Shown: piece by piece, positions 3,487-9,053 of the stretch | Layout of the letters: each line of letters starts with the position of its first letter | Position numbering within the stretch: position 1 is the first letter of the stretch | Source of the DNA: Verrucomicrobia bacterium UBA7008 | Lineage (GTDB): Bacteria > Verrucomicrobiota > Kiritimatiellia > RFP12 > UBA1067 | Reading direction: 5' to 3' | DNA: 9,221 nucleotides | NCBI GenBank assembly: GCA_002449695.1 | Contig: DJXI01000010.1 | Location: 757 to 9,977, forward strand | Notes under the pieces: generated by a model | What the model was told of the DNA's origin: nothing | The model's input: the letters and a program-made list of their open reading frames with translations, nothing else | The model's database searches: none | Translations under genes and position numbers: made by a program

Positions 3487-4383
3487 CTACTTGACGCCGA
3501 TCTTCTTGATGCGCTTCATGATGTCGGCCTTGCCCTCCGGCGAAATCGTCTTGTTCGGCAGGCGCACGTCGCCGAGGTCGACGCCCCACATCTTGCACAT
3601 CACCTTGCCGCCGGCCACGCCGCCGTACTGCACGAGGATGTCCACGATGTCGCAGACGCGCTTCATGCCCTTCTCGACGGTCTTGAGGTCGCCCTTCCTG
3701 ACCGCGTCCCAGATCTTGTAGTAGATGCCCGCCGAATAGTTGTACGTCGAGCCGATCGCCGACTGCGCGCCGAGCGCGACCGCGCCCGCGAACCACTCGT
3801 CGATGCCCCAGGTGATGTCGTACTTGCCGCCGCACGCGCGCAGGCAGCGCTGGTACATGTAGAGGTCGGGATAGTTGAACTTGATGCCGGCGAGGTTCTT
3901 GATCTGGCCGTCCGCCTTCTCCAGGAACGTCTGCATGTCGAAGTTCACGCCGCTCATCGAGGTGTGGTAGTAGTAGAACGGCAGCTTCTCGGACGTCTTG
4001 AGCGCCTCCTTGAGATAGGCGATCAGCATGTCGACCGAGCCCGGCTTGAAGAAGTTCGGCGGAACGATCGAGGTCGCGTCCATGCCGCACTTGACGGCGT
4101 ACGCGCCCAGCTCCTGCACGTCGGGGAGCGCCAGCGCGCCGATGTGCGCGATGAGGAAGAGCCTGCCCTTCGCGGCCTTGACCCAGGCGTCGAAGACGGC
4201 CTTGCGCTCGTCGAGCGAGCAGCAGATGCCTTCGCCCGTCGTACCCGAGACGTAAACGCCGGTGACCTTCTGCTTGATCAGCATCTGGGCCTGCTGTTCG
4301 ATGACCGCGTAGTTCACGCTGCCGTCGGCGTTGAAGCCGGTGTGGGCGGCGGCGATGAGTCCCTGCAACTTCTTGATCTTCAT
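3487..4383 (-). CDS. nanA: N-acetylneuraminate lyase (DHDPS/NAL family)
   Basis: Predicted to split N-acetylneuraminate (sialic acid) into N-acetylmannosamine and pyruvate in the cytoplasm. The 298-residue protein matches the family length for this TIM-barrel aldolase. It has the carboxylate-binding loop GTTGEG (48-53 region), the catalytic tyrosine in FYYYHTSMSG (about Y138), the Schiff-base lysine in AGIKFNYPDL (K168) and GSTYNY (211-216). YYYH followed by SMSG, and GSTYNY, resemble sialic-acid lyases more than dihydrodipicolinate synthase, which has a YN(V/I)P motif. An in-frame ATG at 4431 would add 16 residues. The ATG at 4383 is preferred because AGGGAG lies 6 bases upstream and a candidate promoter would start transcription near 4425. 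Its GC content is visibly lower than its neighbours, with many Lys and Tyr codons. No other sialic-acid genes are nearby. A related aldolase activity is the main alternative. Confidence 0.83.
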   Translation of the reverse strand: MKIKKLQGLIAAAHTGFNADGSVNYAVIEQQAQMLIKQKVTGVYVSGTTGEGICCSLDERKAVFDAWVKAAKGRLFLIAHIGALALPDVQELGAYAVKCGMDATSIVPPNFFKPGSVDMLIAYLKEALKTSEKLPFYYYHTSMSGVNFDMQTFLEKADGQIKNLAGIKFNYPDLYMYQRCLRACGGKYDITWGIDEWFAGAVALGAQSAIGSTYNYSAGIYYKIWDAVRKGDLKTVEKGMKRVCDIVDILVQYGGVAGGKVMCKMWGVDLGDVRLPNKTISPEGKADIMKRIKKIGVK

Positions 4384-4389
4384 TGAATT

Positions 4390-4395
4390 CTCCCT
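4390..4395 (-). promoter_or_regulatory. Ribosome binding site of nanA
   Basis: On the minus strand AGGGAG is followed by six bases and then ATG at 4383. This site decides the nanA start against the longer in-frame ATG at 4431. Confidence 0.7.
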
Positions 4396-4431
4396 GTGGG
4401 TGTTGAACATGATCCTTTTCGGATGACGCAT

Positions 4432-4486: not shown

Positions 4487-5017
4487 CTACTCGTCGGAAA
4501 AGCGGATTTCGAACGTGATGCCGGTCGGAAAGGTCGCGCGGAGCGTCCAGTCGGTCACGACGCCGTCCGCCTCGACGCGCGCGAGCGCCTTCTTCAGCCG
4601 CGCGTCCTTCGGCCGGGCGAGGACGTGGAACGTCCCGTCGCCGTCCTCCTTGTAGAGCGCGTCGAACGCCTCGAAGAACGCGCGCGCGTCGCCGTCGCCC
4701 GCCGCCGCGAACCGCGCGAAGCCCGGCAGGTCCGCCAGCGGCCGCTCGACGCGCTCGTCCTCGTTCGAATAGACGTAGACCAACCGGTCCGACCAGAAGA
4801 GCGTCTCGAACGGCTCGGTCGTGCGCCATTCGAAATCGACGCCGGGGCGGATGCGGTAGGTGCCGCGCGAGACGTACGTCTCGCCTGTCGGCAGGCGCTT
4901 CGTCTGCACGAACGCGCCGCGCGTCTCGTTCGTCGCCGCCAGTTTCGCGGCGAGCGCGGGCGGCACCTCCTGCACCGCCAGCGACGCGATCAAAAGACCA
5001 GCACACCCGATGAACAT
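4487..5017 (-). CDS. LolA-like outer-membrane lipoprotein carrier family protein
   Basis: LolA-type proteins are periplasmic carriers that shield acyl chains of lipoproteins or other lipids on the way to the outer membrane. The 176-residue protein starts with a hydrophobic stretch (GCAGLLIASLA, 4-14) that may act as a signal peptide, though it lacks the usual basic residues. The core matches the family: GAFVQTKRL (35-42), the G.Y.IRPG..FEWRTTEPFETLFW segment (52-75) and a strand YVYSNEDE (81-88). AGGGGGAG lies 5 bases before the ATG at 5017. The frame is open far upstream, but that stretch is an arginine-rich shadow of the fusion gene. The first 28 bases overlap the end of that gene. LolA-like genes are standard members of aryl-polyene clusters, so a role in exporting or placing that type of lipid is likelier than general lipoprotein sorting. 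That last step is inference. Confidence 0.78.
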   Translation of the reverse strand: MFIGCAGLLIASLAVQEVPPALAAKLAATNETRGAFVQTKRLPTGETYVSRGTYRIRPGVDFEWRTTEPFETLFWSDRLVYVYSNEDERVERPLADLPGFARFAAAGDGDARAFFEAFDALYKEDGDGTFHVLARPKDARLKKALARVEADGVVTDWTLRATFPTGITFEIRFSDE

Positions 5018-6582
5018 GGATTCTCCCCCTTCCGATAGCTGTAGGTCCACTCGTTCGCGCCCGTGCGCGCCACCTGGAACGCGATCGGTTCGCCCGGCAT
5101 CACGACATGCTGGAACTTCATCTTCTTCACGGCCGTCGGCGCCGCGCCGCCGCCGAGCCGCGCCGCGAACTTGACGGCCAGCCCCAGCTGCACCACGCCC
5201 GGCAGGATCGGCACGCCCGGGAAATGGCCCTGAAAATAGGGTGCCTGCGGCTCGAACGTCAGCGTGGCCGCGAATGAGTCGGCCGTCTCGACGACGTCGC
5301 GCAGCCGCGGCTCGGCGAGCGCCGATTCGAGCTCCGCCCGCACATCGGCCGCGCGCACCTTGCCCTGCGCGTTGCGCGGCAGCGCGTGGACGTAGCGGAA
5401 CTTCTTGGGCACCGTCCCTTTCGGGAAGACGTCCAGCAGCATCTTGCGCAGTTCGAGCGGCGGGCGGCGCGCGCCGTCCGCGCCGGCGACGAGCAGACAG
5501 CCGAGAATGTCGCCGCGCGCGCTCGGCAGCACCGCCAGGGCGCAGTCCGCGAAACCGCGCGCGCGCACGGCCGCCTCCATCTCCGCGAGGTTGACGCGCT
5601 CCTCGTTGATCTTGACAAGCCGGTCGACGCGCCCCAGCAGCCGGAAACGGCGGCCGTCGGCGGTGAGCGTCACCGCGTCGCCCATCACGTAGCGGCGGCG
5701 GAACGAATAGGGCGAGCGCACCGCGAGCCGCCCGTCCGCGGCGGTCGCGACCTTCACCGCGTCGAACACCTGCCAGTCGCATCCGTCCGGGGGACACGCG
5801 CCGTCCTGCCGCCGCCACGCGACGCCGCCCGTCTCGGTCGAGCCGAAGATCTCGCGCGGCGTCACGCCGAAGACCGCGCGTGTGCGCGCGGCGACGTCGG
5901 CCGTCAGCAGCGCGCCGCTCGTGACGATCTCCACGCAGTTGGGCGGCACGTCGTACTGCGCGGCGTAGGCGGTGAAGCGGTCGAGGAAGCTCGGCGTCGT
6001 GACAAGGAAGACTTTCTCCGCCGCGCACATCTTCGCCACGAGCGACTCCGGCGCGCGGATGACCTCGGGATCGACCGGCAGCCCCAGCGCCGCCGGCAGC
6101 ATCGTCCGCCAGAGCGTCCCGTACATGTGGTCCGGCTCGATCGTCGCGAGCACCGTCACGCCGTCCCGCACGCCGCGCGCGCGGTACCAATCGCGGTGGA
6201 AGGCGGTTTCCTTCGCAAGGCTCTCGAACGTCTTGACGACCGTCTTGGACGCGCCCGACGAGCCGCTCGTGCGGAACGTGACGGAGAAGCGGCGGCGGCG
6301 GACGATCCCTTCGACGAAGAAGGTCGCGGCGACAACCGCCGGCGTCAGCGCGAGCGACCATCCGACGGCGGCGCGGCCGCGCACGAGGAGCGCGCCGTTG
6401 AGCGCCGTCGTCGCGAGGAGAACAAAGAACCACACCGCGGTCAGCCGCCAGCAGTAGGCCGCCGCGCCGTCGGGCAGAATGCCGCCCGAGATGCGCCGGG
6501 CGAACCGGAGACAGAGCGGCGTGCGCCCGGGAAGGAGCGACAGACCGAAGAGAATCGTGAAAACGGCGGCGAGCATCGTCAC
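4990..6582 (-). CDS. Three-part fusion: COG4648-like membrane segment + AMP-ligase + ApeI/FabZ-like hotdog domain
   Basis: This 530-residue protein joins functions that are usually separate neighbours in aryl-polyene clusters. Residues 1-97 form a membrane part with hydrophobic helices near 3-18, 48-67 and 73-91 and a RRRR end, resembling the last part of COG4648 membrane proteins. Residues 98-420 are an adenylating ligase: TSGSSGASK (105-113), FGSTETGG (246-253), GRVDRLVKINEERVNLAEME (317-336) and the catalytic lysine in LPRNAQGKVR (K408). It would activate an acyl or aryl acid and load an acyl carrier protein. Residues about 440-530 are a hotdog domain with FQGHFPGVPILPGVVQ. Catalytic H453 is present, but the acidic residue expected 14 positions later is G467. 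The GTG at 6582 overlaps the upstream ACP stop as GTGA; ATG at 6576 is an alternative start. Domain calls are firm; the pathway is inferred. Confidence 0.85.
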   Translation of the reverse strand: MTMLAAVFTILFGLSLLPGRTPLCLRFARRISGGILPDGAAAYCWRLTAVWFFVLLATTALNGALLVRGRAAVGWSLALTPAVVAATFFVEGIVRRRRFSVTFRTSGSSGASKTVVKTFESLAKETAFHRDWYRARGVRDGVTVLATIEPDHMYGTLWRTMLPAALGLPVDPEVIRAPESLVAKMCAAEKVFLVTTPSFLDRFTAYAAQYDVPPNCVEIVTSGALLTADVAARTRAVFGVTPREIFGSTETGGVAWRRQDGACPPDGCDWQVFDAVKVATAADGRLAVRSPYSFRRRYVMGDAVTLTADGRRFRLLGRVDRLVKINEERVNLAEMEAAVRARGFADCALAVLPSARGDILGCLLVAGADGARRPPLELRKMLLDVFPKGTVPKKFRYVHALPRNAQGKVRAADVRAELESALAEPRLRDVVETADSFAATLTFEPQAPYFQGHFPGVPILPGVVQLGLAVKFAARLGGGAAPTAVKKMKFQHVVMPGEPIAFQVARTGANEWTYSYRKGENPCSSGVLVF

Positions 6583-6827
6583 GCGTTGACGAGCTTCGCG
6601 ACCGCCTGCGTGACGTCCTGGAGCGTGCGGATCGCCTTGAAGTCCGCGGGATCCACCTTCCGGCCCGTCTCCTGCTGGAGACGCACGACCAGATCGACGG
6701 CGTCGATGGAATCGAGGTCCAGTTCGGTGAAAAGGTTCGTCTCCGGCTTGAGCGCCGCCGGATCGACCTCGAATTCCTCGACCAGGATCTTCCGGATCAT
6801 CGCTTCGATTTCCGCTTCGGTCTTCAT
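6579..6827 (-). CDS. Acyl carrier protein, DLDSIDAVDL type
   Basis: A cytoplasmic carrier of 82 residues on which acyl intermediates are held by a phosphopantetheine arm. The attachment serine is S40 in ELDLDSIDAVDLVV (35-48). The surrounding FEVDPAALKPETNLF is typical of a small helical ACP. AAAGGAG lies about 8 bases before the ATG at 6827. The start overlaps the stop of the other ACP (ATGA), and the stop overlaps the GTG start of the ligase fusion (GTGA), so all three are probably made together. The DLDSIDAVDL signature resembles the second of the two ACPs in aryl-polyene clusters, not the fatty-acid AcpP (usually DSLDTVEL). The likely donor enzyme is the adjacent AMP-ligase domain. Confidence 0.92.
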   Translation of the reverse strand: MKTEAEIEAMIRKILVEEFEVDPAALKPETNLFTELDLDSIDAVDLVVRLQQETGRKVDPADFKAIRTLQDVTQAVAKLVNA

Positions 6828-7117
6828 TTCGCCGCTCCTTTCGCTGCCTCCGGCTGCGACGCGAGGACGTACTCGGCCAGCGTCCGGACGGAATGGAAAA
6901 TCTGCCGGTTGTCGGCGGGATTCTTCGAGAACGAGATGCCGAACGCCTTCTTGACCGCCATGCCCAGCTCCAGCGCGTCGATGGAATCGAGGCCCAGCCC
7001 GTCGCCGAAGAGCGGCGCGTCCGTTTCGATGTCGGCGGGCGCGACCTCCTCCAGATCGAGGCTGGAGACGATCAGTTCCTTGATTTGCGCGGCGGTGGCT
7101 TCAAAATCCATGGTCAT
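6824..7117 (-). CDS. Acyl carrier protein, GLGLDSIDALEL type
   Basis: The second carrier protein, 97 residues, has its phosphopantetheine serine at S45 in FGDGLGLDSIDALELG (37-52). It is followed by VKKAFGISF and an NRQIFHSVRTLAEYV helix. This pattern resembles the first ACP of aryl-polyene clusters. Two starts are possible, ATG at 7117 and ATG at 7111. AAGGA lies 4 bases before the first and 10 before the second, so the choice is uncertain by two residues. The open frame continues upstream to 7195, but that part overlaps fmt and has no ribosome site. It lies 22 bases after the fmt stop, close enough for a shared transcript, and its stop overlaps the next ACP start. Confidence 0.9.
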   Translation of the reverse strand: MTMDFEATAAQIKELIVSSLDLEEVAPADIETDAPLFGDGLGLDSIDALELGMAVKKAFGISFSKNPADNRQIFHSVRTLAEYVLASQPEAAKGAAK

Positions 7118-7139
7118 GCGGTCCTTCCGTGGGTGTCGT

Positions 7140-8147
7140 TTACGCGTTGAGCAGCTGTTCGCCCGGCTCCAGCGGACGGCCGCGCAGGAATTCACCGCCG
7201 TTCATCGTCGAACCGCCCTCGGGCTTGAGCTCCGCCAGCAGGATCGCCGTGTCGCCGCACTTCACGACAGGCCCGAGGGGGCCGGACTCGCCCTTCGGCC
7301 GCGCGGTGACGCAGGTGAGCACCGTGCCGGGCGCGGCCTCGCGCCAGTCCGGCTCCAGGGCGCTCGCGATCACCGCCTTCGTCACGATCACGCGGCCCGT
7401 GCTGCCGCGTTTGCGGAAGCGCGCGGGCAGGAACGTGTAGCAGCCCGGCCACGGCGAATAGGCGCGGATCTTGCGCTCGGTGACGAGCACCGGCGCGGTC
7501 CAGTCGATGAGACCGTCCGTCTTCTTCAGCTTGTAGGCGTACGTCGCGTCGGCGTGGACCTGCTCGACCGGCGGCGGCAGCTCGTTGCTGTCCAGAAGGA
7601 CAAGCGCCTTGGCCAGCGTCACGCCGCCCGCGTACGCGAGCGCGTCCATGAGCTCCCCGCCTGTCACGTCGGAATAGATCGGCTCGTAGCTCTGGAGCAT
7701 GATCGGGCCGTCATCCATGCCGAGGCCCATCTTCATCACGGTGACGCCCGTGACGCGGTCGCCCGCCGCCAGCGCCGCCACGACCGGCGACGCGCCGCGG
7801 TACTTCGGCAGGAGCGAAAAGTGGCAGTTCACGCAGCCGAAGAGCGGCAGCTCCAGGAGCGGCTTCTTGAGGAACTGGCCGTAGGCGACGACGGCGATGA
7901 CATCGGGGTGCCAGGCGTAGATCTGCGCCATGGGGGCGGGATCATTCACATTCTCGGGCGTGATGATCGCGGTGAGGCCGTGCTCCAGCGCGAACGCCTT
8001 GCAGGGGCAAGGGGTCAGCGCGCGGCCGCGGCCGACGGGGCGGTCCGGCTGCGTCACGAGACCGACGACCTGAAGTTCAGGCCGTCGCATGATTGCCCGC
8101 AGGCATGTGGCCGATGCGGCGGAAGATCCCATAAAGACGATGCGCAT
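7140..8147 (-). CDS. fmt: Methionyl-tRNA formyltransferase
   Basis: Fmt transfers a formyl group from 10-formyltetrahydrofolate to methionine on the initiator tRNA in the cytoplasm. The 335-residue length is typical of the family. The N-terminal catalytic domain has MRIVFMGSS, TQPDRPVGRG (32-41) and NCHFSLLPKYRGASP (107-121). The catalytic triad is N107, H109 and D145 (GLGMDDGPIM), matching E. coli N106, H108 and D144 with a one-residue offset. The C-terminal domain has KKTDGLIDW and IRAYSPWPGCYTFL. The ATG at 8147 has no Shine-Dalgarno and lies only about 11 bases from a candidate -10 box, so the transcript may be nearly leaderless. The usual partner def (peptide deformylase) is not adjacent. 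tcdA lies upstream and an ACP gene 22 bases downstream. Confidence 0.96.
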   Translation of the reverse strand: MRIVFMGSSAASATCLRAIMRRPELQVVGLVTQPDRPVGRGRALTPCPCKAFALEHGLTAIITPENVNDPAPMAQIYAWHPDVIAVVAYGQFLKKPLLELPLFGCVNCHFSLLPKYRGASPVVAALAAGDRVTGVTVMKMGLGMDDGPIMLQSYEPIYSDVTGGELMDALAYAGGVTLAKALVLLDSNELPPPVEQVHADATYAYKLKKTDGLIDWTAPVLVTERKIRAYSPWPGCYTFLPARFRKRGSTGRVIVTKAVIASALEPDWREAAPGTVLTCVTARPKGESGPLGPVVKCGDTAILLAELKPEGGSTMNGGEFLRGRPLEPGEQLLNA

Positions 8148-9014: not shown

Positions 9015-9018
9015 ACTA

Positions 9019-9053
9019 ACTCTCAACTCTCAATTCTCAACTTTCCACTCTCA
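9019..9053 (+). repeat. Tandem 7-bp repeat (ACTCTCA) between tyrS and tcdA
   Basis: Five consecutive heptamers read ACTCTCA, ACTCTCA, ATTCTCA, ACTTTCC and ACTCTCA on the + strand. It is the same unit, with the same ATTCTCA variant, as in mutL. It fills nearly the whole gap between the two left-facing genes. Its right-hand unit supplies the TGA stop of tyrS (TCA at 9051-9053). On the transcribed minus strand it reads as purine-rich TGAGAGT repeats directly before the tcdA ribosome site. Confidence 0.93.

Follow-up and report, generated by a model that had tools for sequence, protein, structure and literature searches.

The window, a stretch of 9,221 nucleotides from a contig of Verrucomicrobia bacterium UBA7008, carries on its minus strand a run of genes consisting of fmt, two ACP genes, a long fusion gene and a lolA-like gene. 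The fmt gene (7140..8147), which encodes methionyl-tRNA formyltransferase and is not a pathway gene, lies next upstream in most of the genus's fused loci. It is followed by ACP1 (6824..7195, with a likely start near 7117), an ApeE-type protein with the motif GLDSIDALEL, and by ACP2 (6579..6827), an ApeF-type protein with the motif DLDSIDAVDL, which score over the cut-offs of NF006617 and NF003757, respectively. The ApeG-ApeH-ApeI-type fusion gene occupies 4990..6582, and its 3' end is overlapped by the gene of a LolA-like protein (4487..5017) that has weak family matches and is found at the same place in related loci. Elsewhere in the window, an FtsZ-like protein is encoded between FtsA and MutL (498-1607; 104.9 bits against an NCBIfam ftsZ cut-off of 295.2), and a DHDPS-family lyase at 3487-4431 is nearest to N-acetylneuraminate lyase, below the cut-off of that family. 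Tandem copies of the 7-base unit CTCTCAA occupy the mutL linker in frame (2631-2789), and this repeat appears again between genes at 9018-9053.

The fusion frame runs from 6582 to 4990 on the minus strand, to which all its parts given below also belong, and comprises 530 codons without a stop, while the opposite strand over the same interval is interrupted by stop codons. Its 5' end reads GTG-ACG-ATG. The ATG at 6576-6574 is conserved and the starts of the homologues fall there, so a protein of 528 residues is likelier than one of 530; this ATG lies 3 bases past the stop codon of the preceding ACP gene. As the first-pass annotation had claimed, three sets of motifs lie in this single frame in the same order as the separate genes apeG-apeH-apeI, and the motifs it had named were all found at the positions it had given, namely TSGSSGASK at residues 105-113, NAQGKVR with its lysine at residue 408, and GHFPGVPILPGVVQ at residues 452-465.

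Since the source is a MAG split into 94 contigs, such a frame might be the product of an assembly join or a frameshift. The survey of domain architectures, however, gave the same order of parts in the best 120 homologues listed: PF00501 and PF22818 were both present in 120/120 and the P-loop was located 85-125 residues from the start in 118/120, the remaining two, one with a later predicted start and one with a variant P-loop, also bearing the membrane part. Moreover, 12 genome loci contain all three parts within one clean frame. As this layout recurs in the listed homologues, which come from independent assemblies, the assembly join was rejected, and the chance that the frame is an artefact is negligible.

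The N-terminal part, residues 1-98 (6289..6582), corresponds to the C-terminal half of ApeG/COG4648 according to HHalign, hmmsearch, an AlphaFold2 model and alignment A1. Residues 1-97 gave no match in Pfam or NCBIfam. When the 118 N-termini of the fusion homologues were used as the query profile in HHalign, they matched ApeG of the sister loci with a probability of 97.6% (E 1.4e-11, ApeG columns 38-133) and five proteobacterial ApeG with 95.3% (E 6.3e-9, columns 98-197), and five column-shuffled controls reached probabilities of 0.0-0.3% only. The assignment of this segment to COG4648 in the first-pass annotation is thereby borne out, and the per-segment searches recovered AMP-binding, hotdog and ApeG, the last by profile comparison only, Pfam and NCBIfam being silent. 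About half of the membrane protein is missing, however: the profiles identify the N-terminus of the fusion as an ApeG homologue that covers the C-terminal ~100 residues only. Full-length ApeG has 133 residues in the sisters and 184-212 in the references, and the fusion is devoid of the N-terminal ApeG helices. In the AlphaFold2 model, residues 1-98 form two short and two long helices (2-15, 23-31, 40-68 and 70-98), which correspond to the end of the helix series in a 133-residue sister ApeG (29-49, 55-62, 69-97 and 101-132). Five residues invariant in 25 ApeG rows (Phe46, Leu50, Ala60, Thr79 and Trp82) are kept in 115-118 of the 118 fused rows; the ApeG-invariant Glu57, Asn108 and Tyr113 are mostly lost, the stretch of the last two being poorly aligned. 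An unrelated membrane anchor was rejected as the source of this N-terminus because the profile comparison gives ApeG homology, and so was a diverged ApeH N-terminus, since the N-terminal region of ApeH had no HHalign match to the fused N-termini. No separate ApeG was found in any of the 14 fused genomes.

Residues 99-422 (5317..6288) constitute an AMP-forming ligase of the ApeH type, as indicated by PF00501, the model, fold comparison and the position of the P-loop. The Pfam AMP-binding match covers residues 105-292 (47.9 bits, cut-off 29.9), and the nearest ligase family model, TIGR02372, is a weak relative (88.7 bits against a cut-off of 334.7). The P-loop (6244..6270), GSTETG, Asp302, Arg318, Lys324 and Lys408 are invariant or nearly so in the 61 rows of alignment A2; Lys408 (5359..5361), which we take to be the catalytic A10-type lysine of AMP-forming ligases, is present in 61/61. 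The reference ApeH proteins have their P-loops at 123-139, that is, with 122-138 residues ahead of it (5/5 references). This region of about 122-138 residues is missing from the fusion ligase, and the place that it would occupy is the one that matches ApeG. The sister ligases begin 7-10 residues ahead of the P-loop in 107 of the 120 listed, 13 being unmatched by the pattern. Compared with ANL acyl/aryl ligases of ~500 residues (MatB 4fut, 4-coumarate-CoA ligase, EntE and benzoate-CoA ligase), the fusion ligase has no counterpart of their first ~120-150 core residues. The AlphaFold2 model has a mean pLDDT of 92.9 and a pTM of 0.76, the placement of the domains being less certain, and in it the last ApeG helix (70-98) passes straight into the ligase strand (100-105) that bears the P-loop. 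Matches to the ligase domain took up the Foldseek and VIA-align lists, which are therefore uninformative on the membrane part and the hotdog.

The C-terminal part, residues 426-530 (4993..5307), is a hotdog domain of the ApeI/FabA type with PDB sequence matches 3esi and 6qsr. Pfam matches it as FabA-like over residues 438-505 (25.8 bits, cut-off 23) and as ApeI-like PF22818 over residues 440-501, where the score of 28.2 bits lies just under the cut-off of 28.5 and reaches 31.0 bits, over the cut-off, in a six-frame search. His453 of the GHFP motif (5224..5226) is kept in 240/240 homologues (the best 120 listed for each of two queries). At His+14, the acid position of FabZ-type enzymes, the fusion carries Gly467 (5182..5184). 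Among the same best 120 listed per query, the fused query gave 118 Gly and 2 Ser at this residue and the sister query 81 Tyr, 32 Phe, 5 Val, 1 Ala and 1 Asp, so that an acid is missing in 239/240. The hotdog was accordingly rejected as a self-sufficient FabZ-type enzyme, and with the acid of the His/acid pair lost, it would probably not suffice as a dehydratase by itself. The dehydratase proposed by the first-pass annotation is an ApeI-type domain with a borderline Pfam match, and one without its acid. Four of the five proteobacterial ApeI references have Asp at His+14, the fifth, from Acinetobacter, having Gly, and the split site is thus not general to the family.

In A. baumannii, according to the available text of PMC8041823, ApeI and ApeP associate as a heterodimer that has one active site. 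The ApeP homologues of the genomes studied here (21, not counting two reference ApeP) all keep the Glu of the E-x-M/L-A-Q motif, and in the 22 residues ahead of it the FabZ His register is never occupied by His, two homologues having a His out of register. As the hotdog of the fusion keeps the His without the acid and ApeP keeps the Glu without the His, a dehydratase active site formed by two chains, with the His from the fusion and the Glu from ApeP, is likely from these residue patterns.

The query was matched in 45 of 58 relatives, many of these being weak single-domain matches, and the search of genome contigs gave two relatives only, both without the hotdog. These two loci (L003 10001-11287 and L004 4511-5833) contain a fused ApeG-ligase followed by unrelated genes, which indicates that coupling to dehydration is dispensable there. 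In two other genomes, G017 and G282, the hotdog is a separate adjacent gene with its own 89-residue frame (L012 1233-1499 and L073 1227-1493, respectively). Read from these predicted frames, the residue at His+14 changes where the hotdog stands alone, Asp in G017 and Asn in G282 taking the place of Gly. A further 14 sister loci have a ligase-hotdog fusion without ApeG, with a separate ApeG upstream wherever the upstream gene is in view (no upstream ApeG is in view in L022 and L065), and the sister protein has a match in 18 of 288 genomes drawn from the phylum. In the distant genomes G165 and G328, a full-length ApeG of 189-191 residues adjoins a ligase-hotdog protein of 564-583 residues. A tree of 38 ligase domains, whose reading outside the family is limited by long branches (L072, L074, L075 and L084) and whose outgroup is not on one side of a branch, places all 16 rows with the ApeG-ligase fusion in one clade (100/99), beside the sister clade of 14 rows (100/98). 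The fusion of ApeG to the ligase has one origin, after which the hotdog was lost once and split off once. From the tree and the loci together, the ligase-hotdog fusion and the shortening of the ligase predate the joining of ApeG.

In the fused genus the run is flanked by unrelated genes, and the 43-kb contig that includes the window yielded no further pathway genes, an 82-codon match on the opposite strand (E 6e-4) being set aside. ApeP, an ApeM-like exporter and ApeC are each nonetheless encoded in 11/11 fused genomes without being clustered with the fusion, a scattering that was assessed on fragmented MAGs. In genome G000, ApeP lies on contig C20, the exporter on C12/C17 and ApeC on C48; an ApeO-type ketosynthase accompanies ApeP on C20 and an ApeR-type one is on C17, with 46% and 61% identity, respectively, to the corresponding sister cluster proteins (compared for G000 only). 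By eye, the ketosynthase and ApeP genes of this genome (L060 7000-15885 on C20 and L059 5000-10500 on C17) lie beside lipid A/LPS-looking frames, which we take to resemble LpxA, KdtA and LptF/G. In G019, ApeC is on the same contig as the fusion, ~9 kb away, and an exporter still adjoins the fusion in G321 and G135, which branch off early. The sister genomes have their pathway genes in one cluster with ACP1, ACP2, a separate ApeG of 133 residues, the ligase-hotdog protein, a LolA-like protein, the exporter, two ketosynthases, ApeP, the ketoreductase ApeQ, ApeC and acyltransferase types. With its genes labelled after the E. coli table in the available part of PMC8253772, this cluster agrees gene for gene with the aryl polyene type over 12-13 genes.

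Taken together, the fusion unites half of ApeG, a ligase and a hotdog that retains only the His, and we consider it fairly probable that it is a membrane-held station for starter loading and dehydration in a polyketide pathway of the aryl-polyene type. A carboxylic acid activated as its adenylate by the ligase would be transferred to ACP1, the product of the gene two places upstream. With the last helix of ApeG continuing without a break into the strand of the P-loop, the ligase would be positioned at the inner membrane face, and anchoring there is likely. The partner of the hotdog would be the ApeP homologue, whose gene lies elsewhere in the genome, and the paired site would be one dehydratase, to which the fusion chain contributes His and ApeP contributes Glu. 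For the ApeG part, we propose the role of an anchor and docking surface and not that of an energy source. Extending this, we tentatively suggest that ApeG may serve the ligase-dehydratase pair as its platform in the membrane and be no transport motor, and that platform, a minimal ligase starting at its P-loop and half of a two-chain dehydratase have here become one protein; loading and dehydration would then take place at the inner membrane surface and clustering of the genes would no longer be needed.

These proposals have to be weighed against other readings of the same parts. ApeG might supply energy or an export path, the fusion then coupling starter loading to transport. In the available text of PMC8253772, E. 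coli ApeG is called a predicted pyrophosphatase of COG4648 with a possible role in energising transport, LolA is encoded next door, and the exporter is adjacent in the two early branches. The pyrophosphatase label, however, stems from a COG name, and the ApeG-invariant Asn108, Tyr113 and Glu57 are lost in most rows, in an alignment that is uncertain there. ApeG being joined to the ligase and not to the exporter, and half of it being lost, argue against an energising role, which we regard as quite improbable. Alternatively, the hotdog could be a dead scaffold, or a complete dehydratase that uses another acid, instead of half of a shared site. The absence of the His+14 acid from nearly all the listed homologues and the two loci without any hotdog would fit this. 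The His kept throughout those homologues, which is unexpected for a dead scaffold, and the complementary Glu in all the ApeP homologues point the other way, and we judge this reading unlikely, the two-chain site remaining the preferred one.

As for the acid that would be loaded, a source of 4-hydroxybenzoate is missing: chorismate lyase was found in 0/25 genomes of the family of the window and aromatic ammonia-lyase in 0/26 genomes, many of those searched being incomplete MAGs. The one chorismate lyase among the 26 is that of G165, outside the family, where it is encoded (G165:C28:79439-79927) on the same contig as a clustered aryl-polyene-type locus and ~4 kb from it. An aryl starter made by chorismate lyase or an aromatic lyase was rejected on these grounds, and the aryl nature of the product is not supported here. 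The same machinery might thus load another acid, such as a scavenged aromatic or a fatty one, to give a non-aryl polyene, an envelope lipid with a different head; the weak relation to TIGR02372 also fits this. On the other hand, the gene-for-gene agreement of the sister clusters with the aryl polyene type speaks for an aryl product, and in genomes so often incomplete the starter could come by another route or from outside. We hold a non-aryl product to be possible but somewhat doubtful, and keep the designation aryl-polyene-type for the pathway in which the fusion would act.

The role of ApeG has so far been a guess, that of a transport energiser in the available text of PMC8253772, and a fusion to the ligase that arose once points instead to a partnership in starter loading. 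As a natural protein of one chain, the fusion makes this role testable. The family also provides a ligase that lacks the N-terminal part usual for such enzymes and a dehydratase with two catalytic residues apparently distributed over two chains. As pathway genes are scattered in this lineage instead of grouped around the fusion, searches based on clustering may miss such pathways. Aryl polyene genes are mentioned for the cultured relative Pontiella in the accessible part of PMC7356697.

The first-pass annotation had regarded the ligase and the dehydratase as separate genes in described clusters. This holds for E. coli CFT073, whose ape cluster has, in the available text of PMC8253772, the same functions in the order apeG-apeH-apeI between two ACP genes and later genes, but, unlike the window, with apeG, apeH and apeI as three separate genes. 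It does not hold for A. baumannii, where, in the accessible text of PMC8041823, ApeH carries ApeI as a C-terminal fusion, with ApeP as the partner of ApeI. The A. baumannii locus examined here (L081) encodes a 552-residue ligase-ApeI fusion with Gly at His+14, as in the fusion of the window; it differs in its separate ApeG of 184 residues and in the 122 residues ahead of the P-loop of its ApeH. Also close are the sister loci of the same genus (such as G026 and L047), with the same shortened ligase and acid-less hotdog at 34-39% identity to the fusion protein of the window (A2), which, unlike the window, have a separate ApeG of 133 residues, a ligase-hotdog protein of ~439 residues and the full cluster together. 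A three-part fusion of ApeG, ApeH and ApeI was not found in the literature searched; of the fused form, the ligase-hotdog half is described in print and the added membrane piece was not met there. The fusion of ApeH to ApeI is therefore already known, and only the added membrane piece seems to be new.
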